Shown in pieces: positions 9,066 through 33,721 of a stretch of DNA of 34,078 nucleotides. Positions within the stretch are counted from its first letter, which is position 1, and the number at the start of each line of letters is the position of its first letter. The DNA comes from a virus: positions 1 through 34,078 of the IMG/VR virus record IMGVR_UViG_3300035183_000846. The stretch is one strand, 5' to 3'. Under the pieces are notes generated by a model that was not told the origin of the DNA, made no database searches, and saw only the letters and a list, made by a program, of their open reading frames with translations. The position numbers were made by a program, and so were the translations under genes.

Positions 9066-10759
9066 GGTGGCGGTGGTGGGTGCTCTCGGCGGTGGCCCTG
9101 GCGCTCGCCTGCGGCGTGCGGCGCGAACAGCCGCCGCTGCAACTCGGCTTCTCCGCGCAGCTGCCGGCCGCGCCTGCCTACCGCTGGTCTCGCGCTTTCG
9201 GCTCCTCGCTGCCGACCGGCGCCGTGTCGGTCAACGCCGTCCTGCCGCAGTTCGTCGGCGGCTCGTTCCAGGGCGCGCTCACCGGCTGCGTGTCGCTCCT
9301 CGCACGCGGCGGCCCGGACGGATTCGTGGCGCGGCTAGACGACAGCGGCGCCTGCCAGTGGGCGGCGCAGATCGGCGGCGTGGGGGCGAGTACGACCGTG
9401 ATGGCGCTCGCGACAGATGGCGATGCGATCTACGCGGCCGGGTCGTTCACGCGCACGGTCGAAGCCGGCGACGTGAGCCTCACCAGCGCGGGCGGCACGG
9501 ACGGCTTCCTCGTGGCGTACTCGGCGGACGGCACGCTCAAGTGGGCGCGCGGCATCGGCGAGGCCGGGCAGGACAAGGCATACGGCGTCGCGGTGTCGGG
9601 CGGCGTGGTGGCGGTGACGGGCTATGCGGGCGGCTCCGGCCTGCTGCTCGCGGCGTACCGGCCGGATGGCTCGCCGCTCTGGACGCACACGGCCAGCGGG
9701 CAGGGCGCGGGCATCGCGGGGCGACCGGGCGGCTTCTACGTGGTCAGCTCGGCGGGGATCACGGCCTACAATCTCGACGGCATTTCGCTCTGGGCGCAGA
9801 CGGTGCCGGGCGCCACGCTGGCCGCTGTCGCCGCCGACGCGGACGGGCTGGTTGTCACCGGCACCATCGCCGACGGCGGCGCCCCGGCGGTGTGGCTCGC
9901 GCGGTACAGCGCGGACGGCGAGCCTGTCTGGGCGCGGAGCTACCGGGCCGGCTTCCCGATCTTCGGCGGCGCCGGGCGGGCGGTGGCGCTCGGCTCCGAC
10001 TCGATCGCGCTCACCGGCTCGATCACCGATGACGTGGACTTCGGCGGCGGCGCGCTGGCCGGCGGCTACACGGCGGACGTGTTCGTGGCGGAGTTCTCGG
10101 CGAGCGGCGTGCATCGGTGGTCGCAGCGCTATCCGGCCACCTTCCGCGACGAGGGCGAGGGCATCGCCTACGACGGCGACGGGCTCACGGTCGGCGGCGT
10201 GTTTGCGAATAGCATCGACTTCGGCGGCGGGACGCTCAGCGGCACGGGCGCGACGAAGGGCTTTGTGGCGGCGTTCGGGCGGGCGGCGGTGGCGACTGAA
10301 ACGGCGCAGCCGACGAGCACGGCCACGGCGACCACGACGGAGACCGCGACCAGCACGGCCACGAACACGCCGCAGCCGACTGCGACGGCAGCGCCTGCGG
10401 ACACGGTGACGGCGACGGCGACTGCGACGAGCACGGCCATCCCGACCGCGACCAGCACGGAGACGGAGACGGCGACGCCGACCGACACCGCCGCGAGCAT
10501 GCCCACCGAGACCGCGACGCCGGCCGACACCGCGGTCCCGTGGCGCATCTGCGACGTGACGCGCAACGGCGGCATCAGCTCGCTCGATGCCACGCGCGTG
10601 CTACAGTGGGTCGCCGGGCTCGCCGCGCTCGACGCGGAGCAGCAGCGGCTCGGCGACGCGAGCGGCAACGGACAGCTCAGCACACTGGACGCGGTGCTCA
10701 TCCTGCAGTGGGTCGCGGGCCTGCACGACGCGGCGCCGCGCTGCGGGACGGCGGAGTGA
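9062..10759 (+). CDS. Secreted beta-propeller protein with Thr/Ala linker and dockerin-like domain
   Basis: A 565-residue protein. The N-terminus is an export signal ([17 protein letters not shown]); Cys17 could be a lipid anchor, though the lipobox is weak. Residues of about 40-410 are repeats of the [11 protein letters not shown] / [17 protein letters not shown] type, as in SBBP or PQQ-like beta-propellers. A Thr/Ala/Pro linker follows. The C-terminus carries two EF-hand-like dockerin loops, [12 protein letters not shown] (498-509) and [12 protein letters not shown] (532-543), each followed by LQWVAGL, with Cys497 and Cys561 framing the pair. Dockerins bind calcium and cohesins in extracellular complexes. 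The ATGA overlap supports ATG 9062. It is probably lysogen-surface or virion cargo. Confidence 0.85.
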
Positions 10760-14265: not shown

Positions 14266-14636
14266 GCCGCCCACCGCCGCCGTCCGCCGGCGATCGCGCA
14301 CGGCAGTGAATCGGCGGCGAACAGCCACCAGCGCCCACCGGGCACGCGGCGCGCGGCGATGCGGCCCCGGCGCGCGAGCGTCGTCAGGTGCTGCTGCGTG
14401 TAGCCGGACAGCCGCGCCGCCTGCGTGCTCGTGAGCCAGCCCGCGCTCGCGCACCGCAGTCGCAGCCGCCAGCAGCGCGCCCGGATCGCTTGCGGCGTAC
14501 GGTCGAGCGCGGCGGCCAGACGGGCGACCGGCCACACCGCGATACGCTCGCGCAGTAGCGCGTCATCGGCGCGCGACCAGCGCCGGCCCATGGTGCGCGT
14601 GGCGCCGGCGCTGGTCTGATAGGCGAGGCGGGGCAC
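14262..14636 (-). CDS. DNA-binding protein: SANT/Myb-like domain plus excisionase-type HTH
   Basis: A protein of about 124 residues. The first domain (RRWSRADDALLRERIAVW, then LDRTPQAIRARCWRLRLR) fits a SANT/Myb-like three-helix unit. The second (GWLTSTQAARLSGYTQQHLT, then GRIAARRVPGGRWWLFAAD) is a MerR/excisionase-type winged HTH. I preferred GTG 14636, whose first base is the last base of the cysH-like TAG stop; ATG 14591 would remove 15 residues and has no ribosome binding site. Its stop forms an ATGA overlap with the next gene. It is probably a transcription factor or a DNA-targeting accessory of the neighbouring type IV cassette. Confidence 0.7.
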   Translation of the reverse strand: MPRLAYQTSAGATRTMGRRWSRADDALLRERIAVWPVARLAAALDRTPQAIRARCWRLRLRCASAGWLTSTQAARLSGYTQQHLTTLARRGRIAARRVPGGRWWLFAADSLPCAIAGGRRRWAA

Positions 14637-15424
14637 TACGACACCGCCCGCACGCGCGGAAACTCCAGCGCGAGCTGCTGCCACAGCGCCGGGTGGTGCG
14701 TCCGCAGCCAGACCAGCCGCCCGTCCTCGGCGCCGACGGTGGTGAGCCAGCCGGTATTGCGCAGGGTGTAGCGCGAGAACCCGTGCGTCTCCGCATCGTA
14801 GATCAGTCGGTTGTACGGCAGCGCGCGGACCGCGATGTACGCCCACACGTCGCGCGCCGTCCAGTGCGCGATGGGGATCGCGGTGACGTAGCCGTCGCGT
14901 CGCGTGCGGACCAGGCCGTGGGCGCGGATCGTCACGCGCCGACCGGCGCTCTCCTCGCCACGCAAGCCGAGCACCTGCACCCGGTAGCCGCGCGCCGCGC
15001 ACCACTCAGCCATGCGGTCGGCCTTGCCGCGCTTGGCGGCGGCGTACTGGCCGCGCTCGTAGCAGAGGCCATTGGCGTGTAGCCACGCGACCGTCTCGGC
15101 CAGCGTGCGCGTCGGCGCGAGCGTCACCACCTCCGTGCGCGCCGCAAAGTGCGCGATCACCTCGTCGTAGCCCGGCAACTCGTAGGTGCTCGCAAGATGC
15201 ACCAGCGGCACGGGGCCGAGCACATCAAGCGCCAGGTCGGCGGTGACGGTGGAGTCCTTGCCCCACGAGGTGGCGACCATCACCGCCCCGTGGCGCGCCG
15301 CCTCGCGAAGAATCGCCCGCGACCGATCAACCCGCTGCGCGAAGGCCGCAGTCGCCGCCCATGCGAGCCCGTCGCGCCGCCAATCGGGGCTTGGCTGGTA
15401 GTGCCGAGCCTGCCAGGCCCTCAT
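14636..15424 (-). CDS. cysH: CysH-like PAPS-reductase-family protein of the type IV-B locus
   Basis: A 262-residue protein of the adenine nucleotide alpha hydrolase/PAPS reductase superfamily. The PP-loop SWGKDS (residues 53-58), which binds ATP or PAPS, is clear. So are LGLRGEESAGR and IPIAHWTARDVWAYI, typical of CysH relatives. The C-terminal ECGLH block with the catalytic Cys of true sulfate-reducing CysH is missing, so normal PAPS reduction is unlikely. It follows csf3 by seven bases with a purine-rich ribosome binding site. A cysH-like gene beside csf1-cas11-csf2-csf3 is the known signature of type IV-B; its biochemical role there is not settled. DndC-like sulfur chemistry is an alternative. 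Confidence 0.9.
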   Translation of the reverse strand: MRAWQARHYQPSPDWRRDGLAWAATAAFAQRVDRSRAILREAARHGAVMVATSWGKDSTVTADLALDVLGPVPLVHLASTYELPGYDEVIAHFAARTEVVTLAPTRTLAETVAWLHANGLCYERGQYAAAKRGKADRMAEWCAARGYRVQVLGLRGEESAGRRVTIRAHGLVRTRRDGYVTAIPIAHWTARDVWAYIAVRALPYNRLIYDAETHGFSRYTLRNTGWLTTVGAEDGRLVWLRTHHPALWQQLALEFPRVRAVS

Positions 15425-15431
15425 GCCCCGC

Positions 15432-16082
15432 TCACCACTTCGGCTGCACGCATGGTTCGCTGCGCTCCATCAGCCAGTACGGCATGTCGACGACGCCCAT
15501 CTGGCGCGGCCAGTCCCCGCGCACGCCCGGATAATCCGCCGGCAGCGGGCGCAGCGGCACGCCGTCGCGCACCACCGGGAAGCCCTCGCCCCAGGAATCG
15601 CACGGCGCCACGGTCCACGCGCGCACGCGCCCCAGGCCGACCGACCGCTTGCGTCCCAGGTGCGTCACCCAGCCCAGCAGCTCGCGCACGGCATCGACAT
15701 CGCCAACCGCGTACCAGTCGAGGCGGTCGCCGACCACATGCGCAACCTCGCGGGGGATGCGGTAGCTCTTCGCCGGGCCGGCGGTGATCTTGAGCGTGCC
15801 CATCTGCCGCCCCATCAGCTGCGCCTGCTCGACCGGGAAGCGGCGATGCGTGTGCTGGAGCTCGACGCGCTCGACGGCGCCGAGCGCGCAGCTGGCGAGA
15901 TAGAATCGCTCGCCCGGCTCGCGCTCGAGCGGCACCGCGAGCGGCACCAGATCCTCGGCGGTCGCCGCCGGCGGAATGCCGTCGCGCTGGCACATGGCCG
16001 CGCCGAGCAGCGCATCGAGCGCGAGCGGCACGCTCATCGCCAGCCCGCTCGCCAGCTCGGCCGTGACGCGGAGCGGGGTCAT
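15432..16082 (-). CDS. csf3: Csf3, Cas5-like RAMP subunit of type IV CRISPR effector
   Basis: A 216-residue protein. It starts as a ferredoxin-like RAMP (LRVTAELASGLAMSVPLALDALL) and carries a Gly-rich loop LGRKRSVGLGRV at about 142-153, the usual RAMP signature. Cas5 subunits hold the 5' handle of the guide RNA at the foot of the complex. Cys31 and Cys65 are not in a zinc pattern. ATG 16082 overlaps the csf2 stop as ATGA. Length and position directly after csf2 fit Csf3. No nuclease motif is seen, consistent with a structural role. Confidence 0.82.
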   Translation of the reverse strand: MTPLRVTAELASGLAMSVPLALDALLGAAMCQRDGIPPAATAEDLVPLAVPLEREPGERFYLASCALGAVERVELQHTHRRFPVEQAQLMGRQMGTLKITAGPAKSYRIPREVAHVVGDRLDWYAVGDVDAVRELLGWVTHLGRKRSVGLGRVRAWTVAPCDSWGEGFPVVRDGVPLRPLPADYPGVRGDWPRQMGVVDMPYWLMERSEPCVQPKW

Positions 16083-17050
16083 GCCGCAACCGACGACAGG
16101 AACGACGCGATGCGTTCGCGCCGCTCGGCGACGTGCGAGCGGAAGCGCTCGCCCACCCGCGCCCCCAGTGCCCGCACGTCCATCGCGTCGGGCCGCTCGC
16201 TCGGCCGGCGCAGCTCCGCGCCCCAGGCCATGACCGGCGCGAGCAGCCCGCAGCCTGTGCCCCGCTTGCCGCCAACGCGCGCGTCATAGAGGAACGCCGC
16301 GAGCATCACCATCAGCGTGTCGTGGTCGAGGTCGTCCCAGCACGTTGCCGTGACGCGCCACCAGAAGAGCGAGCCCTGCACCACGCGCTCATAGGTGCGC
16401 GGCAGCATCGTGCTCTTGGTCTCGGCCGCGACCGCATCGGTGGCGGCGCCCTCGCGCAGCTCCATGCGCATCTCGACCTGCTGGCGCTCCGCGTCCGTCA
16501 GCAGCTTGCGCTTGGTCGGATCGAGCAGCGGATCCATCCGCACGCGCTGCGCCTCTTCGACGTGTGCGCGCTGGCTCGACAGCGGCGCGGCGCCGATCCA
16601 CTCCACGACATGCTCCGGCAGGAGGTGCGCCGTCTCGGTGCAGATGAGCGTCGCCTCGTCCACCGCGAGCCGGCCGGGGATGACGCGGTTCTGCGCGCAG
16701 CCACCCAGGAGCGCGAGCGGCGGGAAGAGGTCGCAGAGCTCGCGGTAGTCGCCGAGCTTCACGCTGCCGCCCGCCGATCCTGTCACCATGCCGCCCGCGA
16801 AGAGCAGCCGCAGCGCCGCCTCCGACAGCGTGGCGCCGAGGAGTCCCGCCGCGTCGAGGTAGGCGAAGGCCGCCGCCTGGCGCAGGCCGTGGCGCATCGT
16901 GTCGCCCGTCACCATCGGCACATCGGCAAAGCTGCCGTCCGGCAGCCGGGTCTTGCGCCGCATGCACAGCGCTGCGTTGCCCAGCGTCTCGCTGTGGTGC
17001 GCGATCGGCTGCTCGGCGCGCAACACGAAATCAAACCGTTTCGTTTCCAT
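16079..17050 (-). CDS. csf2: Csf2, Cas7-like backbone subunit of type IV CRISPR effector
   Basis: A 323-residue protein. The N-terminus (FVLRAEQPIAHHSETLGNAA) and VPMVTGDTMRHGLRQ at 44-58 fit the first RAMP strand and the conserved [VI]SGNxxRGxLR-type block of Cas7/Csf2. A Gly-rich loop GGKRGTGCG lies at about 260-268. Cas7 subunits polymerise along the guide RNA and form the filament backbone. ATG 17050 has GGAGGAGATGT upstream and overlaps the end of cas11 by 20 nt; the stop overlaps csf3. The length is usual for Csf2. The HHSE near residue 19 is on the expected RNA-facing part, but I cannot assign catalysis. Confidence 0.88.
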   Translation of the reverse strand: METKRFDFVLRAEQPIAHHSETLGNAALCMRRKTRLPDGSFADVPMVTGDTMRHGLRQAAAFAYLDAAGLLGATLSEAALRLLFAGGMVTGSAGGSVKLGDYRELCDLFPPLALLGGCAQNRVIPGRLAVDEATLICTETAHLLPEHVVEWIGAAPLSSQRAHVEEAQRVRMDPLLDPTKRKLLTDAERQQVEMRMELREGAATDAVAAETKSTMLPRTYERVVQGSLFWWRVTATCWDDLDHDTLMVMLAAFLYDARVGGKRGTGCGLLAPVMAWGAELRRPSERPDAMDVRALGARVGERFRSHVAERRERIASFLSSVAA

Positions 17051-17441
17051 ACATCTCCTCCGCCTCCTCGTCGATCACCAGGCTCTGCTGATATTCGAGC
17101 GTGTCGTTGCGTGCCCGCTTGCGCCGCTCCGCTTCCGCGCGCGCGAGCGCCAGCACATACGGCGTCTCGCGGTCGATCAGGTCGAGCAGCGCGCCGTGGC
17201 GCTCACCGACCGCCGCGGCCAGCGCCACCGTCGCCGAAGAGAGCGATCTGCCCTGCCCCACGATGCGCAGGCCGCGCAGGACGCGCGCCATCCACTCCGG
17301 CGCCGTCGTGGTCGTCTTGGCCGCGGCGCGCATCCGCGTCTCGATCTGCTCCCAGTGCGTCAGGCTCGACGCGCCGCCGGCCAGGAACTCCGCCCGCGCC
17401 GCGAGCACCCACCGCACGACTACTGCTCGTACGTCCTCCAT
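17031..17441 (-). CDS. cas11: Cas11-like small subunit of type IV-B effector
   Basis: A 136-residue, Ala/Arg-rich and apparently all-helical protein (MEDVRAVVVRWVLAARAEFL and onward), as expected of Cas11 small subunits, which line the belly of class 1 complexes and stabilise target binding. Sequence motifs are weak, so the assignment rests on size, helical character and place between csf1 and csf2. The start is secure: AAAGGAGACCG precedes ATG 17441. The csf1 frame remains open across most of this gene. The 3' end overlaps csf2 by 20 nt. Confidence 0.72.
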   Translation of the reverse strand: MEDVRAVVVRWVLAARAEFLAGGASSLTHWEQIETRMRAAAKTTTTAPEWMARVLRGLRIVGQGRSLSSATVALAAAVGERHGALLDLIDRETPYVLALARAEAERRKRARNDTLEYQQSLVIDEEAEEMYGNETV

Positions 17442-18204
17442 CGGTCTCCTTTCGTGCGGCGAGCGTCGCCGCGTAGTCCGCCTCGTCGCGCTGCGCGAGC
17501 CAGAGGCAGAGCGTGAACCATGCCCCGCCGCGCGCCGGGCCGTGCGCGTCCTCGAAGGTGCGCACGGCATCCGCGCTATGCTGATAGCTGGCGACCCGGT
17601 ATCGTCCCGTCTCGATCTCCTCCTTGGTGATGCCCGCCGACAGCGCGGCGATCATCGCGTCGCAGAGCGTCCAGTCGCCGAGCGCGATGGTCTGCTCCTC
17701 GAACCGCACCAGGCCGCGCGTGCCGCCGGACAGATTCATCGGCGTCCACGGCAGCGTGTGTTTCTGGCCGCTGTCCGCAATCGCACAGAACCACGGCCCC
17801 ACCTTCGGACGGCGCAGCCAGGCGAGCAGCCACGGCTTGCACGCCTTGTTCCCGTAGGCGTACTCACCCGCATCGTAGCAGTGCGAGAAGAGCCGCAGGT
17901 TCACGCCCTTCTTGCCCGACTGCGGCGCCGGATGTCCCGGCGGCGCCACCCACGAGCAGGCCCATGCGCATGGCTCGCAGACAATCGGCGAGGACTGCGC
18001 GCGGCACTTGTTCTGGTCGGTGAACGACGCGCCCATCCACCGCACACGATCAACGCCGCGATCGTCGAGCGCCGGCGCACCGCAGAGCCAGCACGGCGCG
18101 GCATGCAGCGTGTCGGCCAGCGGCGGACAGCCGGCCAGGCGGTAGAGGAGCGCGGCGGGCGTGCCCTGCTCAGACTGCCGGGACTGCTTCGCTGCTGCCG
18201 CCAT
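17203..18204 (-). CDS. csf1: Csf1, zinc-finger large-subunit-like protein; 3' end runs into cas11
   Basis: The frame from ATG 18204 gives 333 residues; GGAGGTGGCG upstream makes the start secure. CWLC (Cys38, Cys41) and CEPC (Cys76, Cys79) form the two-knuckle zinc finger typical of Csf1, the small Cas8-like subunit of type IV. The middle is rich in aromatic residues (CKPWLLAWLRRPKVGPWF) and looks globular. From residue 255 the frame overlaps cas11 by 239 nt, and its sequence becomes Gly/Ala/Arg shadow-like. The true protein probably ends near 255, close to the usual Csf1 length, with a lost stop, a frameshift or a real overlapping tail. The start overlaps the helicase end by 35 nt. Confidence 0.8.
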   Translation of the reverse strand: MAAAAKQSRQSEQGTPAALLYRLAGCPPLADTLHAAPCWLCGAPALDDRGVDRVRWMGASFTDQNKCRAQSSPIVCEPCAWACSWVAPPGHPAPQSGKKGVNLRLFSHCYDAGEYAYGNKACKPWLLAWLRRPKVGPWFCAIADSGQKHTLPWTPMNLSGGTRGLVRFEEQTIALGDWTLCDAMIAALSAGITKEEIETGRYRVASYQHSADAVRTFEDAHGPARGGAWFTLCLWLAQRDEADYAATLAARKETDGGRTSSSRAVGARGAGGVPGRRRVEPDALGADRDADARRGQDDHDGAGVDGARPARPAHRGAGQIALFGDGGAGRGGR

Positions 18205-19921
18205 CGCCACCTCCACCGCCAAGGGGCGTGCGCGCCCCCGCCTTCTTCGCCAGCAGCGCTTCCGCCAGCCGCTTCACGTTGTCGCCGCCACCCTGTAGCT
18301 GCTCGACCAGCGCCGCATCCGGATCGCGAATGCCCTGGATCTGCCCCTTCTTGATCTGCAGCGTGTCCGCGATCACCGGGTCGCTGCCGCTGTCGGCAAC
18401 GAGGAAGTAGGCGGCGACTGGGTCGCCCTGGCCGTCACGGTGCACGCGGCCGATCGCCTGCTCATGGACGGCCGGCGACCAGTCGAGCTCGCCGAACACC
18501 ACCGTGCGGCAGCAGCCCTGCAGCCCGTCCAGGCCGGCGCCGGCGCGGAGCGACATGATCAGCACCGGCGTCTCGCCGCCGACGAACCGGCGCTTCGCCT
18601 CCTCCTTCTGGTTCGGCGACTCCGAGCCGGTGTACATCGCGGGCTGCAGGTCGCGCAGCCTATCCAGCCAGATCGAATAGACCTCACGGTGCCAGCCGTA
18701 GAGGACGACGCGTTCGCCGCTTTCGACCAGCAGCTTCACGAAATCGGCGACGTACGGCGCTTTCGCGATCCCCGTCGCCTGGCGGACGAGGTAGGACAGC
18801 TCCTCCGCGGCCTTCCATTTCTCGCCGCGCCCGAGCGGGTTCTGGTCAAGGATGATGCGCGCCAGCTCCATCGCGGCGCTCTGCACCGATTCGATCGCGC
18901 GGGTGTCCGCGTCGACGTAGTGCTCGATCTTCGTCAGCTCCGGCAGCTCGCGGCCGACGTCCTTCCGGGTCCGGCGCAGCATCAGGCCGTGCTCGCGCAG
19001 GTAGCCGCCGAACGCCTTCGCATTCTTGATCGACGCCCGGCCATGCTGGTCGGTGTGGTCGCCGCACCATTCGCGCAGGAACTCCTCCCAGGAGCCGAGC
19101 GCGCCCTCGCGCAGCACGTCGAGGACGGACCACATCTCGCCGCCTAGGTTGTGGATCGGGGTCGCCGACAATCCCAGGCGGTAGGTCGCCGCCCGCGCTA
19201 GCTGGACGGCGGCGGCGTACTTGTCGGTCTTGCGGTGCCGCAGCTCCTGCACCTCGTCGAACACCACGGAGCGGATGTGCGGCGACAGCGCGTCCGCCCA
19301 TCCGGCCATCTTGTGGTAGTTCATCACCAGCACGTCGGGAAACTCGCCGAACAGCCCGCGCTGTGGCCCGGTCAGGTCGTACGGCGTTCCCTTCTTGATG
19401 ATGTGCACCCGCAGGCCGGGAGCGAACTTCTGCAGCTCGTCGCGCCACTGCCGCGGCAGATGGGTGAGGGTCACGACCAGCGCCGGGCGGGTCGCCGGGT
19501 CCGTCAGCATGCAGATCGCGGATGCGGTCTTCCCGATGCCGACGTCGTCGGCGAGCAGCAGGCCCGGAACCTGCAGCGCCATCTCGGCCGCGATCTTCTG
19601 GTATTCGCGGGCCGGGACCGCCAGCTCGAACCGACGCGCCTGGTAGTCGCCCGACATGATCGCCGAGACGATCGCCTCCTGCTCGCGGTGCATCGCCGCG
19701 CGGCGTTCGAGGTGCTCGCTCGGCGTCACCTGCAGCGGGAAGCGCTCGCAGAACCATTGCAGGTCGCGCGCGATCTCGATCGTGTCGGTGAGCGTGACCT
19801 TGCCGCCGGCGCGCTGCGCCTTGCCGAAGACGCGCTTGAGCCGCATGGCGACGTGCGGCTCGCACTTGATCTCCCACTCGCGGCCCTTCAGGACCGCCGT
19901 GCCGAATGTCCGCACCCTCAC
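18170..19921 (-). CDS. SNF2-like superfamily 2 helicase / ATPase
   Basis: A 583-residue protein with the SF2 motif set: Walker A DDVGIGKT (125-132), DExx box FDEVQE (Asp222, Glu223), motif III LSATP (251-255), motif V around SLRAGAGLDGLQ (457-468) and motif VI QAIGRVHRDGQ (488-498). The order and the RxHRxGQ box fit the SNF2/RapA-like branch of DNA translocases. GTG 19921 forms a GTGA overlap with the nuclease-like gene and has GGGAGG upstream; the longer frame is shadow. The C-terminus is Gly-rich and overlaps csf1. In many phages such a gene serves replication or recombination. Here it is also directly upstream of csf1. Confidence 0.9.
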   Translation of the reverse strand: MRVRTFGTAVLKGREWEIKCEPHVAMRLKRVFGKAQRAGGKVTLTDTIEIARDLQWFCERFPLQVTPSEHLERRAAMHREQEAIVSAIMSGDYQARRFELAVPAREYQKIAAEMALQVPGLLLADDVGIGKTASAICMLTDPATRPALVVTLTHLPRQWRDELQKFAPGLRVHIIKKGTPYDLTGPQRGLFGEFPDVLVMNYHKMAGWADALSPHIRSVVFDEVQELRHRKTDKYAAAVQLARAATYRLGLSATPIHNLGGEMWSVLDVLREGALGSWEEFLREWCGDHTDQHGRASIKNAKAFGGYLREHGLMLRRTRKDVGRELPELTKIEHYVDADTRAIESVQSAAMELARIILDQNPLGRGEKWKAAEELSYLVRQATGIAKAPYVADFVKLLVESGERVVLYGWHREVYSIWLDRLRDLQPAMYTGSESPNQKEEAKRRFVGGETPVLIMSLRAGAGLDGLQGCCRTVVFGELDWSPAVHEQAIGRVHRDGQGDPVAAYFLVADSGSDPVIADTLQIKKGQIQGIRDPDAALVEQLQGGGDNVKRLAEALLAKKAGARTPLGGGGGDGGSSEAVPAV

Positions 19922-22200: not shown

Positions 22201-22316
22201 GGTTATACTCCTTCCAGTAGTTCAATCGGCAGGTGTGACAGCGTCGCTTGCCGTCGCTACGATCGACGCTGGTGGCCCTTGGCACAGTGCTGCTCGTCGC
22301 TCAGCTCGTCGGTCAT
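22184..22316 (-). pseudogene. Frameshifted small CxxGH...CxxC zinc protein
   Basis: ATG 22316 overlaps the clamp-like gene stop as ATGA and encodes MTDELSDEQHCAKGHQRR before a TAG. A one-base shift continues as SDGKRRCHTCRLNYWKEYN and ends at a TAA (22184-22186) inside the next gene start. Together they make a protein of about 44 residues with the C-x2-GH ... C-x2-C layout of small phage zinc fingers. The gene is broken by a frameshift, is expressed by frameshifting, or contains a sequencing error. Without it, this 112-nt gap would be the only unexplained one in this part of the operon. Confidence 0.4.
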
Positions 22317-23119
22317 CGCTCACCTCGAATCTGCGCGGCCAGGGACTGCAACTCGTTCACCGCCGACGCTGGCTCTCCGCTGCCAGAAATTTGCGCCGCT
22401 CGCAGTTCGGCCGTGCGCGCCCAATGCTCTGCCGTGTCGCTGAACGTTTTCCCGCTCAGCCGCTCCCGTAGCTCGCGGTTCTCCTCGGCGGCGGCGAGGT
22501 ACATGGTGCAGATGCCGCGCTCGGCCAGCGTGTCAGTGTCCCAGCGCGCGACCAGATGCGGCACGCGGGCCAGGATCTCCGTCGCCGACGCCAGGACGAG
22601 CTGCCCGTCGTTCCGCCGCAGTCGTAGTGTCGAGTGCGCGGTCGGCGGCAGCATCAATGTGTGCAGCGTGCGCAAGAGCGGCGCGGCCTCGATCCGCACC
22701 GTGGCGACCCAGGATGCCGGCATGCGCGTGGCGTAGTTCGTCGGGAACTCCGCGGCCCTCTCTGGCGGCATGCGCTTGAAGCGCGCCGCGCCGCCGACGC
22801 CGCCTTCCACGATCAGCGCATCGTCGAGCATGCGAAGCACGACCGGCGCGCCGGTGGCGCAGGCCTCGTAGAACCGGGACACCTCGCCGGAATCGAGGCC
22901 GACCCACGGCATGCCGATCGACGGAACGCTCGCCGGGCGCGACGAGTAGGCGATGCGATGGTTGTCGGTGGCCGCCAGGTGGAGCCGCGCCCCCGATGCG
23001 CGCAGGTGGATGCCGTGCAGGCAGCAGGGCAGCCCTTTCGTGCACTCATCCAGCGCGGCGAACGCCACGGTGCTGAGCATCTCGTGGAGGTGCCAGCCGA
23101 CGATCGTGACGGCGCTCAT
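22313..23119 (-). CDS. Sliding-clamp-like (DnaN/beta-clamp-related) protein
   Basis: A 268-residue protein. The segment LPCCLHGIHLRASGARLHLA, then ATDNHRIAY (about 49-58), matches the DnaN block GVxLxxxGxxLxLxATDxHRLA, in which the ATDxHR turn is strongly conserved. Bacterial beta clamps have about 370 residues in three domains, so this protein may have two full domains or a divergent third. The clamp tethers polymerases and repair enzymes to DNA. ATG 23119 overlaps the previous stop as ATGA; the long upstream frame is shadow. The C-terminal 60 residues look coiled-coil. No DNA polymerase gene is in the window, so it may recruit host enzymes. Confidence 0.72.
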   Translation of the reverse strand: MSAVTIVGWHLHEMLSTVAFAALDECTKGLPCCLHGIHLRASGARLHLAATDNHRIAYSSRPASVPSIGMPWVGLDSGEVSRFYEACATGAPVVLRMLDDALIVEGGVGGAARFKRMPPERAAEFPTNYATRMPASWVATVRIEAAPLLRTLHTLMLPPTAHSTLRLRRNDGQLVLASATEILARVPHLVARWDTDTLAERGICTMYLAAAEENRELRERLSGKTFSDTAEHWARTAELRAAQISGSGEPASAVNELQSLAAQIRGER

Positions 23120-25502: not shown

Positions 25503-26711
25503 TCAGACGAGCTCGCCCTGCTTGGCGCCGCCGGCCTTCGGTGCCGCGCCCCTGTTGCCGGCCGCCGCCGCCTGCTTCGCCTTCAGCTCCTTGATCGTGG
25601 CGGCGAGGAACTTCTCCGCGGCCTCGAACTGCGCCACGGTGAGGTCCTCGAGCTCGGTGTCGGGCACCGCCGTCGCGAGCGCGCTCATGCCCTTGCCCTC
25701 GCCGCCCAGCGCGTCGGCCTGGTCGATCAGGGCGCAGAGGGCCGTGCGCTGCTCGTCGCTGGCGAGCTCGCCGGTCTCTTCGGCCTGCTGCTGGTCACCG
25801 GCGTCGCCGCCCTGGCCGCCCTCGGTGCCCGCGTCCAGGATGTCCTCCAGCTTCACCGGCCCGCGCGCCTCCGGCAGGGCGGGCGCGTTGCCCGCGCCGC
25901 CCGGCGTGACGTCGATCACGTCGCCGCTGCCGTCGATCGAGAGCGCGCGCACGGCCTCGGTGTCGTCGATGACGGCCCAGCCGCGCGAGACGGCGTAGTG
26001 CATGGCCGTCTTCATCGACATCTCGATCGGCCAGACGTGCCACGGGTCGGTGCGGCGCGCCCACTCGGTCTTCACGGCGAACTGGTAGCTGTCCGAGCCG
26101 TTGCGCCGGATCTCGATCAGGCGCTTGGCGACCCAGCCCCGGAAGAGCACCTGGCCCGTGCTGGTCTTCACCACGATCACGACGCCGCGCAGCTCGTCCC
26201 AGGTGACCGGCGGCTCGTCGATCTGCGGCTCGAAGCGCGTCACCTCGCCGTCGGTGACCTCCAGCACGTCCTGCGTTCCGCACGGCAAGGCCAGGAGCAC
26301 CAGGTCGGCCCGGCGGGCGAGCGCCGCCAGACCGCGGTGCGACAGCTGGTACTGCAGCTGCGGCGCCTCGCCCTTCCGCGGCCGGCGCGGGACGAGGTAG
26401 GCGAGCGCCGCGGCGCCCGTACCCGGCATCATGCCGGTCAACGCCGCGATCGCGACGCAGTGCGCGATGCTGGCCGGCGTGGCGGCGTAGAAGTCCGACG
26501 GATTGCGCGCCGCCATCGCGGACGCCTGGAACGCGGACGCGATGCGGCCCTTGGCCTCTGCCGCGCGCTCGGGGCCAACCCACTGCTCGAGCAGCTTGGT
26601 CGCCGCGCGCGTCGTCAGCTGGAGGAACCGCGCGCCCTCGGACTGCTGCGCGTCGGTCGTCGCCGGGGCGGTCGTGCCGTTGGTGCCGTTGGTCGGTGCG
26701 GGTGTGCTCAT
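25503..26711 (-). CDS. recT: RecT-family single-strand annealing recombinase
   Basis: A 402-residue protein. The core at about 60-270 has the RecT hallmarks: IAHCVAIAALTGMMPGTGAA, then AYLVPRR, LQYQLSHRGLAALARR, VVIVVKTSTGQVLFRG and WPIEMSMKTAMHYAVSRGW. RecT anneals complementary single strands during phage replication and recombination. An acidic linker (about 285-335) and a helical C-terminus follow; the latter may bind SSB or partners. The N-terminal 25 residues are a low-complexity Thr/Asn/Pro tail. It is transcribed right after a PD-(D/E)XK nuclease, the usual exonuclease plus annealing-protein pair. The ATG at 26711 precedes this low-complexity tail. Confidence 0.92.
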   Translation of the reverse strand: MSTPAPTNGTNGTTAPATTDAQQSEGARFLQLTTRAATKLLEQWVGPERAAEAKGRIASAFQASAMAARNPSDFYAATPASIAHCVAIAALTGMMPGTGAAALAYLVPRRPRKGEAPQLQYQLSHRGLAALARRADLVLLALPCGTQDVLEVTDGEVTRFEPQIDEPPVTWDELRGVVIVVKTSTGQVLFRGWVAKRLIEIRRNGSDSYQFAVKTEWARRTDPWHVWPIEMSMKTAMHYAVSRGWAVIDDTEAVRALSIDGSGDVIDVTPGGAGNAPALPEARGPVKLEDILDAGTEGGQGGDAGDQQQAEETGELASDEQRTALCALIDQADALGGEGKGMSALATAVPDTELEDLTVAQFEAAEKFLAATIKELKAKQAAAAGNRGAAPKAGGAKQGELV

Positions 26712-26745: not shown

Positions 26746-27570
26746 TCAGGCAGCGCGAGATGCAGCGGCGCGGCGCTCGCGATTCACGTAGACACAGCTC
26801 CTCCAGTACCCGCACCACCGCTCGTTACATCCCCAGCTCGACAGCTCGGCCGGCGGGAAAATCCCCGCGTCGCGCGCCCGCAGAAAGGCGTTCAGTCGAG
26901 CGACGAGGACCAGGTAGTCGCTGCGCCGCCGCGTGGTGCTGAGGCGCTGATGCTTCGGTGGCGAGGTGTCGACCAACACCTCCATGTCCAGGCCGGCGGC
27001 GTCCTGTCCGGTGTGCGCGCGGTAGGCGAGCCCGTAGAGCGACAGCTGCAAGGACTGATCCGCTTCGGCCTGCGTCTTCGACCGCGCCGCCGTTTTCAGG
27101 TCCTTGACGCGCCGGTCGACGGTGGCCACGTCCAGGATGCCGAGCAGGTCGACGGGGGCGTCGGGCAGCATGATGCGGACGCGCTCCTCGACCAGCGCCG
27201 GCTGGATCGTGGGGGCCACGCTGTGGGCATAGAGCCCGGTCAGCTTCACCGCCCGGTCCTTGGCGCGCCCGAGTACGTTGGCCTCGCCGATCGACGCCTC
27301 TTCCGGCGTGAGCAGGACGCCGCCCTCGGCGCGCGACGCGTCGAACGCCGTTGCTGCGGCGTCGACCAGGTCGCCGAGGGGCAGGTCGACGCCGCTCGCG
27401 ATCTTCTGGCGGTGATTCAGCTCGGCGGCTCCATGGACCGCGCGGCCGCGGATCGCCGCGACGCCAGGCGGGATCTTCTCCCGCTCGATGTAGCGACGAC
27501 GAAATGCCTCGCCGCAGCGCTCAAACAGCGCCAACTGCGAATAGGAAACGTATGGGCGCTCCTCGCTCAC
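26746..27570 (-). CDS. PD-(D/E)XK nuclease with Fe-S cluster motif (Cas4/AddB-like)
   Basis: A 274-residue protein of the PDDEXK_1 type. It opens SYSQLALFERCGEAFRRRYI with Cys19, has GILD (Asp147), then VKDLKTA (Asp157, Lys159) and QLSLYGLAY (Gln175), the nuclease core. It ends with WGCNERWCGYWRSC (Cys248, 253, 259). Cys19 with the three distal Cys makes the four-Cys [4Fe-4S] site of AddB/Cas4 nucleases. It probably resects DNA ends for RecT. I chose GTG 27570 over GTG 27576: it forms a GTGA overlap with the gene before and has AGGAGG eight bases upstream. It should not be called a CRISPR adaptation gene; no cas1 is present. Confidence 0.88.
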   Translation of the reverse strand: MSEERPYVSYSQLALFERCGEAFRRRYIEREKIPPGVAAIRGRAVHGAAELNHRQKIASGVDLPLGDLVDAAATAFDASRAEGGVLLTPEEASIGEANVLGRAKDRAVKLTGLYAHSVAPTIQPALVEERVRIMLPDAPVDLLGILDVATVDRRVKDLKTAARSKTQAEADQSLQLSLYGLAYRAHTGQDAAGLDMEVLVDTSPPKHQRLSTTRRRSDYLVLVARLNAFLRARDAGIFPPAELSSWGCNERWCGYWRSCVYVNRERRAAASRAA

Positions 27571-27863
27571 GCGCACGCCCTCCTATCCCTCCGCCACTCA
27601 ATCCACGTGCGCACGATGTCCGCGCGCAGCGTCCGACTGCCGCTCCGCTGCTCGGCGAGCACGCTCATGAACTGCCGCACGAACACCACGACATCCTCCG
27701 CGTCCGGCTCGTAGTCCGCCGCGCGCAGGATCGCGGTCGCTGCCGCGTCGAGCACGTCCGGCCGGTGCGCCTCGATGAAGATGGCGCGGTCAGTCTCGCG
27801 CGGGTCGAGCGCGGTGACGGTGACGATGCCGGCGAGCGAGCTGATGGTGTAGCCGCTGATCAC
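27567..27863 (-). CDS. Small protein, unknown function
   Basis: A 98-residue protein starting from GTG 27863 (ISGYTISSLAGIVTV), with GTGA overlaps at both ends. It is acidic in the middle (YEPDAEDVVVFVRQF) and basic at the end (EWRRDRRACA). The alternation of strands and helices suggests a single small domain. I recognise no family. It lies directly before the RecT-associated nuclease and might be a recombination accessory. Confidence 0.6.
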   Translation of the reverse strand: MISGYTISSLAGIVTVTALDPRETDRAIFIEAHRPDVLDAAATAILRAADYEPDAEDVVVFVRQFMSVLAEQRSGSRTLRADIVRTWIEWRRDRRACA

Positions 27864-28754: not shown

Positions 28755-29274
28755 CAGAACCCCCTCCACCGGCGGCGCCCCTCGTCGACCGCGGCCTGTC
28801 CGCTTCCTCAGTCGCGGCCGGCGCGTCGATCGCCCAGCCGCGCAGCCGCGCTACCGTCTCGATGTACGCGAGCGCGGCCATGACCTCGCGGCGGTTATCC
28901 TTGCCGGCCCAGTAGGCCAGCGCCTGGTCAAGCCGCAGCTCACGGCAGCCGACGCGGATGGACAGGCGACCGCCGGAGAGCCAGCCGTACGCACACCAGC
29001 CGTCCGGGTAACCGGCGGGGATGATGGCGTTGGCGCCGCGCAGGTAGGCGTCGCGCAGGTAGGCGCCGCTCAGGTCGGCGCCGCTCAGGTCGGCGTCGCG
29101 CAGGTCGGCGCCGCTCAGGTAGGCGTCGCGCAGGTAGGCGCCGCGCAGGTCGGCGAAGCGCAGGTCGGCGCCGCGCAGGTTGGCGCCGCTCGCAGCTGCC
29201 GCACTCAGCTCATCGCGTAGCGTCTCGGCCGTCCCTTCCCACGCGACACTGCCGTCGATGCGGTAAATCTTCAT
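28741..29274 (-). CDS. Pentapeptide-repeat protein
   Basis: A 177-residue protein. A short N-terminal beta segment ([14 protein letters not shown]) is followed by about 11 pentapeptide repeats of the A(D/N)LRG / AYLRD type at residues 30-82, which fold into a right-handed square beta-helix. The C-terminal domain ([20 protein letters not shown], then [15 protein letters not shown]) matches other phage pentapeptide proteins I have seen. Some pentapeptide proteins mimic DNA and protect gyrase; the number of repeats here is too small to claim that. GGAGGTGCG precedes ATG 29274, which overlaps the previous stop. Confidence 0.85.
29031..29190 (-). repeat. 15-nt tandem repeat array encoding pentapeptides
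   Basis: Roughly eleven degenerate 15-base units (caggt-mggcg-ccgct type) lie in tandem and in frame with the pentapeptide gene. Neighbouring units are nearly identical, which suggests recent expansion by slippage. It is protein coding and is not a CRISPR array. Confidence 0.8.
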
Positions 29275-29705
29275 CGCACCTCCCCCGCCCACGCGACCGC
29301 CGCGAGCATGTCGTCGGTCGTGAACGCGGCCCCGCACTCGCCGCACTCCCACGTCCCGTACTCGTCGCCCGTCGTCGCGCCCTCGATGTCGTCGAGCGCG
29401 CCGTCGCAGTAGACCGGCCAGAGCAGCGCATCGCAGGCGCGGCAGTGGGGCAGGATGCCGCGCACGGTGAGGGGGGCGCGGCACGCGGCCGAGCAGTACG
29501 GTGCGTAGGCCGGGCTCGCCATCTCGTGCTCCGGCCTGCCGCAGCGCTCGCACACCGGCTCGTCCGCCTCCGCCGCCTCCAGGCAGGCCTGCGAGCAGAC
29601 CCCGATGTTGCAGCCGTGGTCGAACGGCTGACCGCAGACAGCGCAGCCGGGAAGCTGCTCGGGTTCGATGAGATGGGCGGTGGCGGGGTGCGTTGGGTTC
29701 GTCAT
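29271..29705 (-). CDS. Multi-zinc-finger protein
   Basis: A 144-residue protein with at least 13 Cys, mostly in pairs: CAVC (21, 24), CSQAC (37, 41), CERC (52, 55), CSAAC (71, 75), CRAC (88, 91), CGEC (121, 124). Three short zinc ribbons in series are likely, the middle ones of the CxxC...CxxxC type. Both ends have ATGA overlaps. The family is unknown; such proteins in phage early operons may bind DNA, RNA or host proteins. Confidence 0.65.
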
Positions 29706-30334
29706 GCGGCCTCCGTGGTGGCGAGCTTGTGAGCCAGCCGCTTCGACTTGATCGTCGCGATCGTGTCCGACAGGACGAACAGTGCGCGCTCCAGCTCGGG
29801 GGTGAGCACGGGGGCCAGCGACTTGGCCTCGACCAGCTCCTGCAGCGCGTGCAGCTTCCAGCGCATCTCGCTGGGGTCGCCGTGCGATGCGTGGACGATC
29901 GCGGCGCGCCGGATGAAGGCCTCAACGGACTGCTGGTAACGCCGCGCCTTCTTGATGTCGTGCAGTTCCTTGCGGGACAGCCACACGACGAACGGGCGCA
30001 TCCGGTCCGCAATCGGGTCCTGCTTCGTGACCGGCGGCGCCCAGGGCTTCGCCATGGGCTGCCTTGCGTGGCAGGGGTCACACAGCGGCGTCAGGGTGAG
30101 CGGCTTGCGATAGTCGGGATGGTGCCAGACATCGGCGCTCCCGCCGCAATCGGCGCAGACCTGCGTGGCCGCCGGCGGGATGCGGCCTTCCGCGAGCGCG
30201 GCGCGCATCGCGCGATGCGCCTTGGCTTGAATCAGGCGCCGTCGCTCCCGAATGGCCGCCGTGCCCGTGTACCGATAGCCCTGGGGAGTCCGCGCCGCCT
30301 TCACCGCCACCGCCGCCTCCGTGATGTTGTGCAT
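29702..30334 (-). CDS. HNH-like zinc-motif protein, first gene of the long minus-strand operon
   Basis: A 210-residue protein. Cys60-x2-Cys63, then [20 protein letters not shown] with His71, His72, Cys85, Cys88 and His89, forms an HNH-type zinc centre. The usual DH[IV] catalytic pair reads HH, so nuclease activity is uncertain. Before it is a basic helix, and after it a helical region with a [17 protein letters not shown] segment that might bind DNA. I chose ATG 30334 because the promoter at 30351-30379 would start transcription near 30344; the longer TTG 30379 start would overlap the -35 box. Confidence 0.65.
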
Positions 30335-30350
30335 CGCGCTCACGTATTCG

Positions 30351-30379
30351 TTTGTATGCGAATCGCACACCAACGTCAA
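30351..30379 (-). promoter_or_regulatory. Early promoter of the minus-strand operon
   Basis: On the minus strand TTGACG (30374-30379) and TACAAA (30351-30356) are separated by exactly 17 bases. A 17-bp operator-like dyad fills most of the spacer. The leader to ATG 30334 would be about ten bases. It is the only clear promoter that could drive the long run of overlapping genes to its left. Confidence 0.65.
30354..30370. promoter_or_regulatory. Operator candidate O1, GTATGC-N5-GCACAC
   Basis: GTATGCGAATCGCACAC lies within the early promoter spacer and matches the perfect dyad at 31487-31503 in 15 of 17 bases. Binding here would block RNA polymerase. A nearby inverted ATTCG/CGAAT pair overlaps it. 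Confidence 0.6.
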
Positions 30380-30390
30380 GCGGATTCATC

Positions 30391-30410
30391 CCGGGCATGG
30401 GCTTGCCCGG
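30391..30410. other. Short hairpin in the divergent intergenic region
   Basis: CCGGGCA at 30391-30397 pairs with TGCCCGG at 30404-30410 around six bases. It lies between the minus-strand promoter and the plus-strand ribbon-helix-helix gene, 40 bases before ATG 30450. It could be a leader hairpin or a protein-binding dyad. Confidence 0.35.
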
Positions 30411-30449
30411 TGGACCCGATTGTTCCATGGGCTCAAGTACGCAGCGCAT

Positions 30450-30707
30450 ATGACGAAACGGTCAGACACCGGCGGGCAGAAGGTCGACCTCGACGACGAT
30501 GCCGACGAGGAGAAATACGACCAGATCACCACGGTGCGTTTCTCCGCGCGGCAGATCGAGGCGTTCCGGCGGTTGGCCAAGCGAACAGGCACAAAGCCGG
30601 GGACGCTGATTCGGATCAAGGCGCTCGAAAACTTCGACTGGGAACGGTTTTTGGCCCAGGACGACGCCCGGCGACCACGCCAGTCCGGTAGGGACGACGG
30701 AGATTGA
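30450..30707 (+). CDS. Ribbon-helix-helix (CopG/Arc-like) protein, repressor candidate
   Basis: An 85-residue protein. An acidic N-terminal arm (VDLDDDADEE) precedes a CopG-like unit at about 27-62: strand TTVRFSARQ, helix IEAFRRLAKRTG, turn TKPG and helix TLIRIKALENF. Such dimers insert the paired strand into the major groove and often repress their own promoter. It is divergent from the long minus-strand operon, the normal place for its repressor. ATG 30450 is the first start after the operator region; its ribosome binding site is weak. Confidence 0.78.
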   Translation: MTKRSDTGGQKVDLDDDADEEKYDQITTVRFSARQIEAFRRLAKRTGTKPGTLIRIKALENFDWERFLAQDDARRPRQSGRDDGD

Positions 30708-30731
30708 GCGCCGCCGCGCGAGCTGGCGAAG

Positions 30732-31433
30732 ATGGCGCTCGTGGCCTGCCCGGAGTGCGGGCGAAGGGTGTCGGACCGCGCGGCTGCGTGTCCGCAGTGT
30801 GGCTATCCTTTCGCCAGCGATCCCGCCCGCCGCGCCGCCGCTGACGCTGCCGGCGCAACCGGCAGCGTCCCCGCAGATGCCAGGACAACGTCTGAGCGCC
30901 TGAACGAGCGCTTCGCGCAGCTCGCTGCCGACGGGACCCTGCGGGATTCCGAGCGGATGCTCAGCGGCGTCCGTGCCGCGCAGGCGATCGCTGCCGGCCT
31001 ACAGGCGTTGGCGCCCGCGATCAGGCCGGCGCCGCTCGGTCACGACCTGGGCCGCGCGGCGCCGCAAGGGGGTGCCGCGCCGCGCTGGTTCCGGGCCGCC
31101 TTTGTTCCGCTCGTGACGGTCGGATTCATCGTCGGTCTCGGAGCGCTCCTGTCCAAGAACGGCGGCCCCCGCGGTTCGGAGCCAAAAGGGAAGGTGGAGC
31201 GGGAGAACGAGGCCGTGGCCTTCTGTGAGGACCGGATGCGACGAGCGCTCGTGGCGCCGGGCAGCGCCACGTTTCCTTGGGCGACGGCGCGCGCCGTGGG
31301 CAACCGGACGTATGTCGTCTCCTCCTACGTCGACGCGACGAACGGATTCGGCGGCGAAATCCGCACCTATTACACCTGTCGCGCCCGCTACACCGGCGAC
31401 GAATGGACGATGGTCGCCTTCGACGTCCACTGA
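30732..31433 (+). CDS. Zinc-ribbon membrane protein
   Basis: A 233-residue protein. The N-terminus is a zinc ribbon (CPECG, Cys6 and 9; CPQCG, Cys20 and 23). A polar linker follows, then one membrane span (FRAAFVPLVTVGFIVGLGAL, about 120-140) and a C-terminal domain (VAFCEDRMRRALVAPGSATF, then SYVDATNGFGGEIRTYYTC). The ribbon would face the cytoplasm and the C-terminal domain the periplasm. I know the combination from bacterial envelope proteins without an assigned function. A terminator follows. It could be a lysogenic-conversion or superinfection-related gene. Confidence 0.75.
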   Translation: MALVACPECGRRVSDRAAACPQCGYPFASDPARRAAADAAGATGSVPADARTTSERLNERFAQLAADGTLRDSERMLSGVRAAQAIAAGLQALAPAIRPAPLGHDLGRAAPQGGAAPRWFRAAFVPLVTVGFIVGLGALLSKNGGPRGSEPKGKVERENEAVAFCEDRMRRALVAPGSATFPWATARAVGNRTYVVSSYVDATNGFGGEIRTYYTCRARYTGDEWTMVAFDVH

Positions 31434-31437
31434 TTCG

Positions 31438-31463
31438 TCGCGGAGCCTGCGCGAATTTTTTTT
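31438..31463 (+). terminator. Rho-independent terminator
   Basis: TCGCG (31438-31442) pairs with CGCGA (31450-31454) around a 7-nt loop, and the hairpin is followed by a run of eight T (31456-31463). It ends the transcript of the zinc-ribbon membrane gene and is the clearest intrinsic terminator in the window. Confidence 0.75.
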
Positions 31464-31468
31464 CGGGC

Positions 31469-31503
31469 TTGCAGCCTTCGCGCCCCGTATGCTAATCGCA
31501 TAC
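31469..31503 (+). promoter_or_regulatory. Promoter region with operator O2 before the second RHH gene
   Basis: TTGCAG (31469-31474) may be a -35 box; the -10 is unclear (TAATCG at 31493 with an 18-base spacer). The segment 31487-31503, GTATGC-TAATC-GCATAC, is a perfect 6-bp dyad and nearly identical to the operator candidate at 30354-30370. It ends three bases before ATG 31507, so bound repressor would block initiation. Confidence 0.55.
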
Positions 31504-31506
31504 AAC

Positions 31507-31689
31507 ATGGCGGATCAAACGGGCCTGAAACCGAGGACGATTCGGCTCTCTGACAAGGTTTGGAAGGCGGTCGAGCGACGCGCGCGACAAGACCGACGGA
31601 CGGTGTCCGACTTCCTCCGTGTGGAGATCGAAGAGCTGTTGAAGCGCCCGAAGAGCGAAGCGGCGGGCGGCGGCGCGCAGGCGGCCTAA
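31507..31689 (+). CDS. Second ribbon-helix-helix protein
   Basis: A 60-residue protein with one RHH unit at about 9-45: strand PRTIRLSDKVW, helix KAVERRARQDR, turn RTVSD and helix FLRVEIEELLK. It is the size of phage Arc/Mnt-type repressors. No ribosome binding site is visible, because the operator occupies that place. ATG 31489 is in frame and would add six residues, so translation may be leaderless or weak. The operator next to its start suggests autoregulation. Its stop codon overlaps the stop of a convergent minus-strand gene. Confidence 0.75.
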   Translation: MADQTGLKPRTIRLSDKVWKAVERRARQDRRTVSDFLRVEIEELLKRPKSEAAGGGAQAA

Positions 31690-31967
31690 TTGGCGATGCG
31701 CCAGAGCGCTGCCACCAGCTCGTCCCGCGAGCAGCCGAGCGCGTTGCGAATGTCGCGCTCGCTCGCCCCCAACCGCAGCAGCCGGCAGATCGTCGCATCT
31801 GCGCCGGTGAGCGATGCGGGCTCGTATGGCGTGTCTCCCGCGACACGCATCAACATGCGGAGCGCTGCCGATTTCAATTCGGCCCCCCTGGCAACCTTGC
31901 GCCCCGACGGCGCCTGCCGCCGGCGGCCCCTCACCGCATCCCGCCCCGCGTCACTGTCCGATCGCAT
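31686..31967 (-). CDS. Small HTH-like protein on the minus strand
   Basis: A 93-residue protein. The N-terminal half is basic (GRRRQAPSGRKVARG). The C-terminal half (TICRLLRLGASERDIRNALG, then CSRDELVAALWRIA) fits a helix-turn-helix of the resolvase/Fis type, where GASERDIxxxLGCS is the turn and recognition helix. ATG 31967 has a GGGGG five bases upstream; ATG 31979 would add four residues. It is convergent with the RHH gene and divergent from the integrase-side operon, a fitting position for a second regulator. The frame could still be a shadow. Confidence 0.5.
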   Translation of the reverse strand: MRSDSDAGRDAVRGRRRQAPSGRKVARGAELKSAALRMLMRVAGDTPYEPASLTGADATICRLLRLGASERDIRNALGCSRDELVAALWRIAN

Positions 31968-31984
31968 GATGGCCCCCATGTATC

Positions 31985-33369: not shown

Positions 33370-33415
33370 GTGAGGGGCGTACGGCCGCGGACGTGAGTCG
33401 CGGCGGAGACGGGTG

Positions 33416-33721
33416 ATGGCGGCGGTAGTGGAGAACAGGCGAGGCGGGTATGGCGCCGACGTGCGCCCCTACCTGAGCCTTGCGCAGGCTGCGGCGTTCA
33501 GCGGCTTCACCGTTGGTCGCATCAAGAACCTGATGCGCAACGGGACGCTGGTCGAGCACGTCCACTTCACCCGTCCGCGCAACTCCCGCCCGCTGATCGT
33601 GCTTGCTGCTTTCGACGCCTACCTCCGCGGCGAGGACGAACCGCTGATCGCGGCGCACCGGAAGCAGCAGCGTCGAGCGCCTGGCCGCTGCAATCTGGGC
33701 GCCCTGAAAGAGGCCGTCTGA
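33416..33721 (+). CDS. Excisionase-like DNA-binding protein
   Basis: A 101-residue protein. Residues of about 19-60 (YLSLAQAAAFSGFTVGRIKN, then RNGTLVEHVHFTR) form a MerR/AlpA-type winged HTH as in phage excisionases, followed by LIVLAAFDAYLRG. It directly precedes the integrase, with TGATG coupling. Excisionases bend the attachment-site DNA and turn the recombinase towards excision. GGAG lies upstream of ATG 33416; GTG 33413 is an alternative. Confidence 0.78.
   Translation: MAAVVENRRGGYGADVRPYLSLAQAAAFSGFTVGRIKNLMRNGTLVEHVHFTRPRNSRPLIVLAAFDAYLRGEDEPLIAAHRKQQRRAPGRCNLGALKEAV

Follow-up and report, generated by a model that had tools for sequence, protein, structure and literature searches.

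We identified a pair of operator-like sites, one at the promoter of a long leftward early operon and one at the start of a predicted repressor gene, in an IMG/VR record of 34,078 bases, which was analysed as a whole (the window) and is a linear fragment of 71% GC that ends within a candidate integrase gene. The two sites are very probably operators of one regulator. This regulator is probably, at moderate confidence, the small ribbon-helix-helix (RHH) protein P0001, which would bind both sites and repress the early operon and itself. The coordinates of the sites, of the surrounding genes and of a type IV-B-like csf cassette on the same strand as the early operon are given in Table 1.

Table 1. 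Positions of the features discussed, in order along the window, with the basis of each assignment
Feature	Position	Strand	Basis or remark
Type IV-B-like cassette	14636-18222	-	NCBIfam matches below curated equivalog cut-offs
cysH-like gene	14636-15424	-	PAPS_reduct 3.5e-17
csf3	15432-16082	-	
csf2	16079-17050	-	
cas11-like ORF, overlapping csf1 end	17031-17441	-	Position and size only
csf1	17203-18222	-	
RecT-like annealing protein, early recombination gene	25503-26711	-	
PD-(D/E)XK exonuclease, early recombination gene	26746-27576	-	
P0003, HNH-endonuclease-like, first gene of early operon	29702-30334	-	phrog_2340 1.4e-7
Sigma-70-like promoter TTGACG-N17-TACAAA of leftward early operon	30351-30379	-	9/12 consensus bases
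Operator-like site 1, GTATGCGAATCGCACAC	30354-30370		7/8 dyad pairs
P0002, possible second RHH-like protein	30450-30707	+	phrog_4113 5e-4 (function unknown); DUF6290 0.098
Zinc-ribbon protein, between the two sites	30732-31433	+	PF13240 6.6e-6
Terminator-like hairpin and T8 run, 5' of site 2	31438-31462	+	
Operator-like site 2, GTATGCTAATCGCATAC	31487-31503		7/8 dyad pairs; end 3 nt 5' of P0001 ATG (31507)
P0001, 60-aa Arc/CopG-like ribbon-helix-helix protein	31507-31689	+	phrog_6506, PF01402, AF2, Foldseek
Possible excisionase-like HTH ORF	33413-33721	+	HTH_17 0.085, below cut-off
Possible integrase 5' part, cut by contig end	33721-34077	+	Arm-DNA-bind_2 6.5e-4, below cut-off

Two palindromic sites and a predicted promoter at site 1

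The initial annotation had paired the two 17-mers as one motif, and they lie at the positions it gave, with 15 of 17 plus-strand bases identical. It had missed that either site taken alone is nearly a perfect palindrome, in which 7 of 8 pairs match about the central base. The half-sites read GTATGCGA, GTGTGCGA, GTATGCTA and GTATGCGA and together match GTATGCGA in 30 of 32 bases; the deviating bases fall at different positions in sites 1 and 2, as expected for the target of a symmetric protein. Both sites are intergenic. Site 1 lies between the start of the HNH gene (30334) and the ATG of P0002 (30450), and site 2 falls in the gap that follows the zinc-ribbon stop codon (31433) and precedes the P0001 ATG; gene starts are our choice, and two longer alternative ORFs cross site 1 on opposite strands. 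The sites are direct repeats around P0002 and the zinc-ribbon gene and could in principle be recombination sites or cassette borders that flank this 1.1-kb segment, but their similarity ends at the dyad, no recombinase adjoins the dyad and both dyads are at gene starts, which makes this reading hardly credible. A second inverted repeat (CCGGGCA-N6-TGCCCGG, 30391-30410) follows site 1 ahead of the start of P0002, and the 115-nt gap that holds it folds better than most of its shuffled versions (z -2.1). RNA searches gave neither an Rfam match nor a tRNA, and site 1 was rejected as an RNA element, as it overlaps the -10 box and would be absent from the operon transcript.

A scan of the whole window at up to three mismatches revealed no third place with one form of the pattern, while another form added a weak match at 10201 (3 mismatches). 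The window contains 36 palindromes of such quality, among which sites 1 and 2 are the sole pair with 15/17 identity. Two promoter-like islands that are rich in AT could resemble each other by chance in a GC-rich genome: when composition is ignored, 66-95% of simulations contain at least one 15/17 palindrome pair, as words rich in GC recur at 71% GC. With matches weighted by base composition, however, only 0.2-0.6% of Markov simulations reach the score of the observed pair, and palindrome pairs in which each member has at least 45% AT were found in 0-0.07% of Markov simulations. The location of both copies in short intergenic gaps, which was outside the simulation score, lowers the probability of chance further, and we regard a chance resemblance as very improbable.

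The predicted promoter of the leftward operon has its TTGACG box at 30379-30374 and its TACAAA box at 30356-30351 on the minus strand. The whole window has four 9/12 matches against an expectation of about one, and no other lies on the minus strand between 13.75 and 32.09 kb. Site 1 had been described as filling the promoter spacer; the promoter-like sequence is present, and the site overlaps 14 of the 17 spacer bases and extends into the -10, of which it includes the first three bases. The further claim that the motif marks two promoters is supported at site 1. At site 2 no sigma-70-like promoter was recognisable by consensus, the best plus-strand match having 7/12 bases and a -10 that ends at the ATG, so that the P0001 promoter is unrecognised and a second promoter is inferred. 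Site 2 is preceded by the terminator-like hairpin with its T8 run, which would set P0001 apart from the zinc-ribbon gene and suggests that the P0001 gene needs its own start. Elsewhere in this region, a minus-strand promoter-like sequence (TTGACG-N18-TAGATT, 32116-32087) lies upstream of a small ORF (31686-31979) that has no family match and that by eye resembles an HTH protein in its C-terminal part.

P0001 and other candidate regulators

Site 2 was initially reported to touch the start of an RHH gene, and this was confirmed, as the site ends three bases before the P0001 ATG and P0001 is an RHH protein by phrog_6506 and by its model. The profile match is to phrog_6506 ('Arc-like repressor', 1.3e-6), and the comparison with PF01402 (RHH_1) yielded an E value of 0.001 and 19.4 bits, 1.1 bits below the cut-off of 20.5. 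The AF2 model (mean pLDDT 74; 88-92 for blocks 11-40) has helices at residues 16-28 and 33-46 after an extended segment, and its top Foldseek matches include the Arc-operator (1par) and CopG-DNA (1ea4) structures with a probability above 0.9 and E values of about 0.2-0.3. P0001 therefore has an RHH domain both by profile and by its strand-helix-helix fold. Two RHH proteins had been assigned to this region; P0001 retains this assignment, whereas P0002 has weak family matches and a low-confidence model (pLDDT 58).

In the operators of Arc and CopG, half-sites of 4 bp stand 5 bp apart, and the ATGC-N5-GCAT core of the two sites matches this layout. Dyads of 17 bp with a 5-bp centre are also the targets of lambda-type HTH repressors, and the geometry thus cannot decide for an RHH protein. 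We propose that both dyads are bound by a single phage repressor, a dimer or tetramer, for which the Arc-like P0001 is the most likely candidate. On site 1, P0001 would block RNA polymerase at the leftward early promoter, from which transcription would run from the HNH gene to csf1-csf2-csf3-cysH, and on site 2 it would occlude its own start and thereby repress its own synthesis.

Another phage regulator, with P0001 as one of its targets, is an appreciable though unlikely alternative. Candidates are P0002, which is encoded 80 bp from site 1 and divergently from the early operon, the HTH-like ORFs at 31686-31979 and 33413-33721, the latter with a weak HTH match, and a cI-like protein beyond the contig end; the linear fragment is cut inside the candidate integrase gene, so that a further repressor may be missing, and 17-bp dyads would suit HTH dimers too. 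Only P0001 combines good repressor family and fold support with a gene that adjoins a site, however, and the model of P0002 is of low confidence.

In IMG/VR we found no relatives of P0001, of P0002 or of the HNH protein P0003; GTDB genomes and named phages gave none for P0001 and P0003, and no relatives of the promoter region were found. Across all IMG/VR viral contigs, the motif with its flanking AAM had no match; without AAM, seven chance-like matches were obtained across all IMG/VR contigs. The sequence around them is unrelated and differs in GC content, most of the matches are inside ORFs, and none has P0001 or P0002 relatives nearby. These matches also bear on the idea that the sites bind a host regulator (e.g. 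of the SOS or metal response) that would make both transcripts respond to a host signal. Phages are known to adopt operators of their hosts, but the seven matches count against such a regulator, and the motif is not among the LexA boxes known to us; we consider a host regulator improbable.

The leftward operon and its csf cassette

From 30.33 kb leftward, the minus strand encodes the HNH-like protein, zinc-finger and pentapeptide-repeat ORFs, the PD-(D/E)XK exonuclease, RecT and an SbcC-like protein, followed by an ORF at 22313-23119, DUF5131, an SNF2-like helicase, csf1, csf2, csf3 and the CysH-like gene. Minus-strand ORFs continue without obvious break from 30.3 kb to the csf cassette: the sole apparent gap (22.3-23.1 kb) is filled by the minus-strand ORF 22313-23119, which is coding-like with high GC3, and just one terminator-like element, a weak one at 28256-28242, was found on the minus strand within the operon. 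We infer from this arrangement that the csf genes depend on the promoter at site 1. By eye, the product of ORF 22313-23119 has the look of a sliding-clamp-type protein. The stretch at 28984-29238 consists of 15-nt coding repeats of the pentapeptide-repeat-like protein.

The defining genes of type IV-B are csf1-3 together with a cas11-like and a cysH-like gene (PMC8175902). Plasmids, prophages and some lytic phages carry type IV systems, and IV-B also occurs in a family of archaeal viruses (PMC10848311). The window holds csf1, csf2, csf3 and a cysH-like gene, the same set and order of which recur in relatives, and no array-like repeat of a CRISPR array was detected at 11.5-23.2 kb. Judged by gene content, this arrayless csf1-csf2-csf3-cysH set fits type IV-B.

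Thirteen other viral contigs encode a csf2 relative with 43-56% identity. Csf1, csf3 and cysH adjoin csf2 in nearly all of them, and they have little else in common with the window. The motif is absent from these 13 contigs: eight have no site at up to one mismatch, and the other five, searched at up to two mismatches, gave weak matches in two. Without P0001 relatives and with 13 csf2 contigs that lack the motif, there is no comparative footprint of the sites. In two of the 13 contigs (G003 and G012), RecT or exonuclease genes precede csf on its strand; in four others RecT is found elsewhere or on the opposite strand. A palindrome repeated three times in G003 (CCGGAGTACTCCGG, L030:2364-2516) was considered as an analogous operator cluster and dropped, as it is within a repetitive coding stretch. 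An integrase catalytic domain is encoded in only one of the 13 contigs, many of which are fragmentary records, and lysogeny control of csf is therefore probably not a general feature. The catalytic domain (PF00589) is likewise absent from the 34,078-base fragment, which ends inside the candidate integrase gene.

Likeness to known phage switches

The initial annotation had read this region as a lysogeny switch in which an RHH protein represses itself and the early operon including the csf genes. Several elements of that reading stand, namely the shared operator-like sites, P0001 as an RHH protein, an operon that continues to csf and adjoining putative integration genes, while the RHH assignment at 30450 is weak and the site-2 promoter is unrecognised. 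Operator-like sites are shared between the early promoter and the predicted repressor gene, as in a lambda-like switch. A role in lysogeny is plausible, although what is switched may instead be early versus late timing.

It is textbook phage biology that a repressor has operators both at an early promoter and at its own gene, and Arc acts in the immI region of P22 on ant and arc. As with the Arc/Mnt RHH repressors of P22, a small phage RHH protein is combined here with a dyad operator that overlaps a promoter, with expected autoregulation and with a fold match to 1par; unlike for P22 Arc, the target of the predicted binding would be the whole leftward early operon. CopG plasmid repressors share the RHH fold, with a match to 1ea4, and the 4-5-4 half-site layout, but CopG acts on plasmid copy number and on its own promoter rather than on a phage early operon. 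The arrangement of a leftward early operon with recombination genes, divergent from a rightward regulator and putative integration genes, and of operators common to two transcription units resembles lambda immunity (PL, cI), from which it differs in that no cI-like HTH repressor was identified in the fragment and in that each promoter has one site versus a cluster of three. The csf cassette is similar to type IV-B of the Fuxiviridae in having csf1, csf2, csf3 and a CysH-like gene without an adaptation module (PMC10848311; PMC8175902). Those are, however, archaeal viruses with a mini-array, whereas here no array was found, the fragment is bacterial-phage-like with part of a candidate integrase, and the cassette comes far down a long early operon.

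The operator pair would thus be an ordinary phage switch, except that csf genes seem to sit under it. The role of type IV-B Csf complexes and of their CysH-like partner is unknown (PMC8175902), and a short regulatory element at this position would tell when a phage turns on Csf-CysH. Tentatively, the type IV-B csf cassette may be under a lysogeny repressor, silent in the prophage and switched on together with the early recombination genes at infection or induction. If this is true, it would suggest that Csf-CysH serves the early cycle of the phage itself and not the protection of the lysogen.
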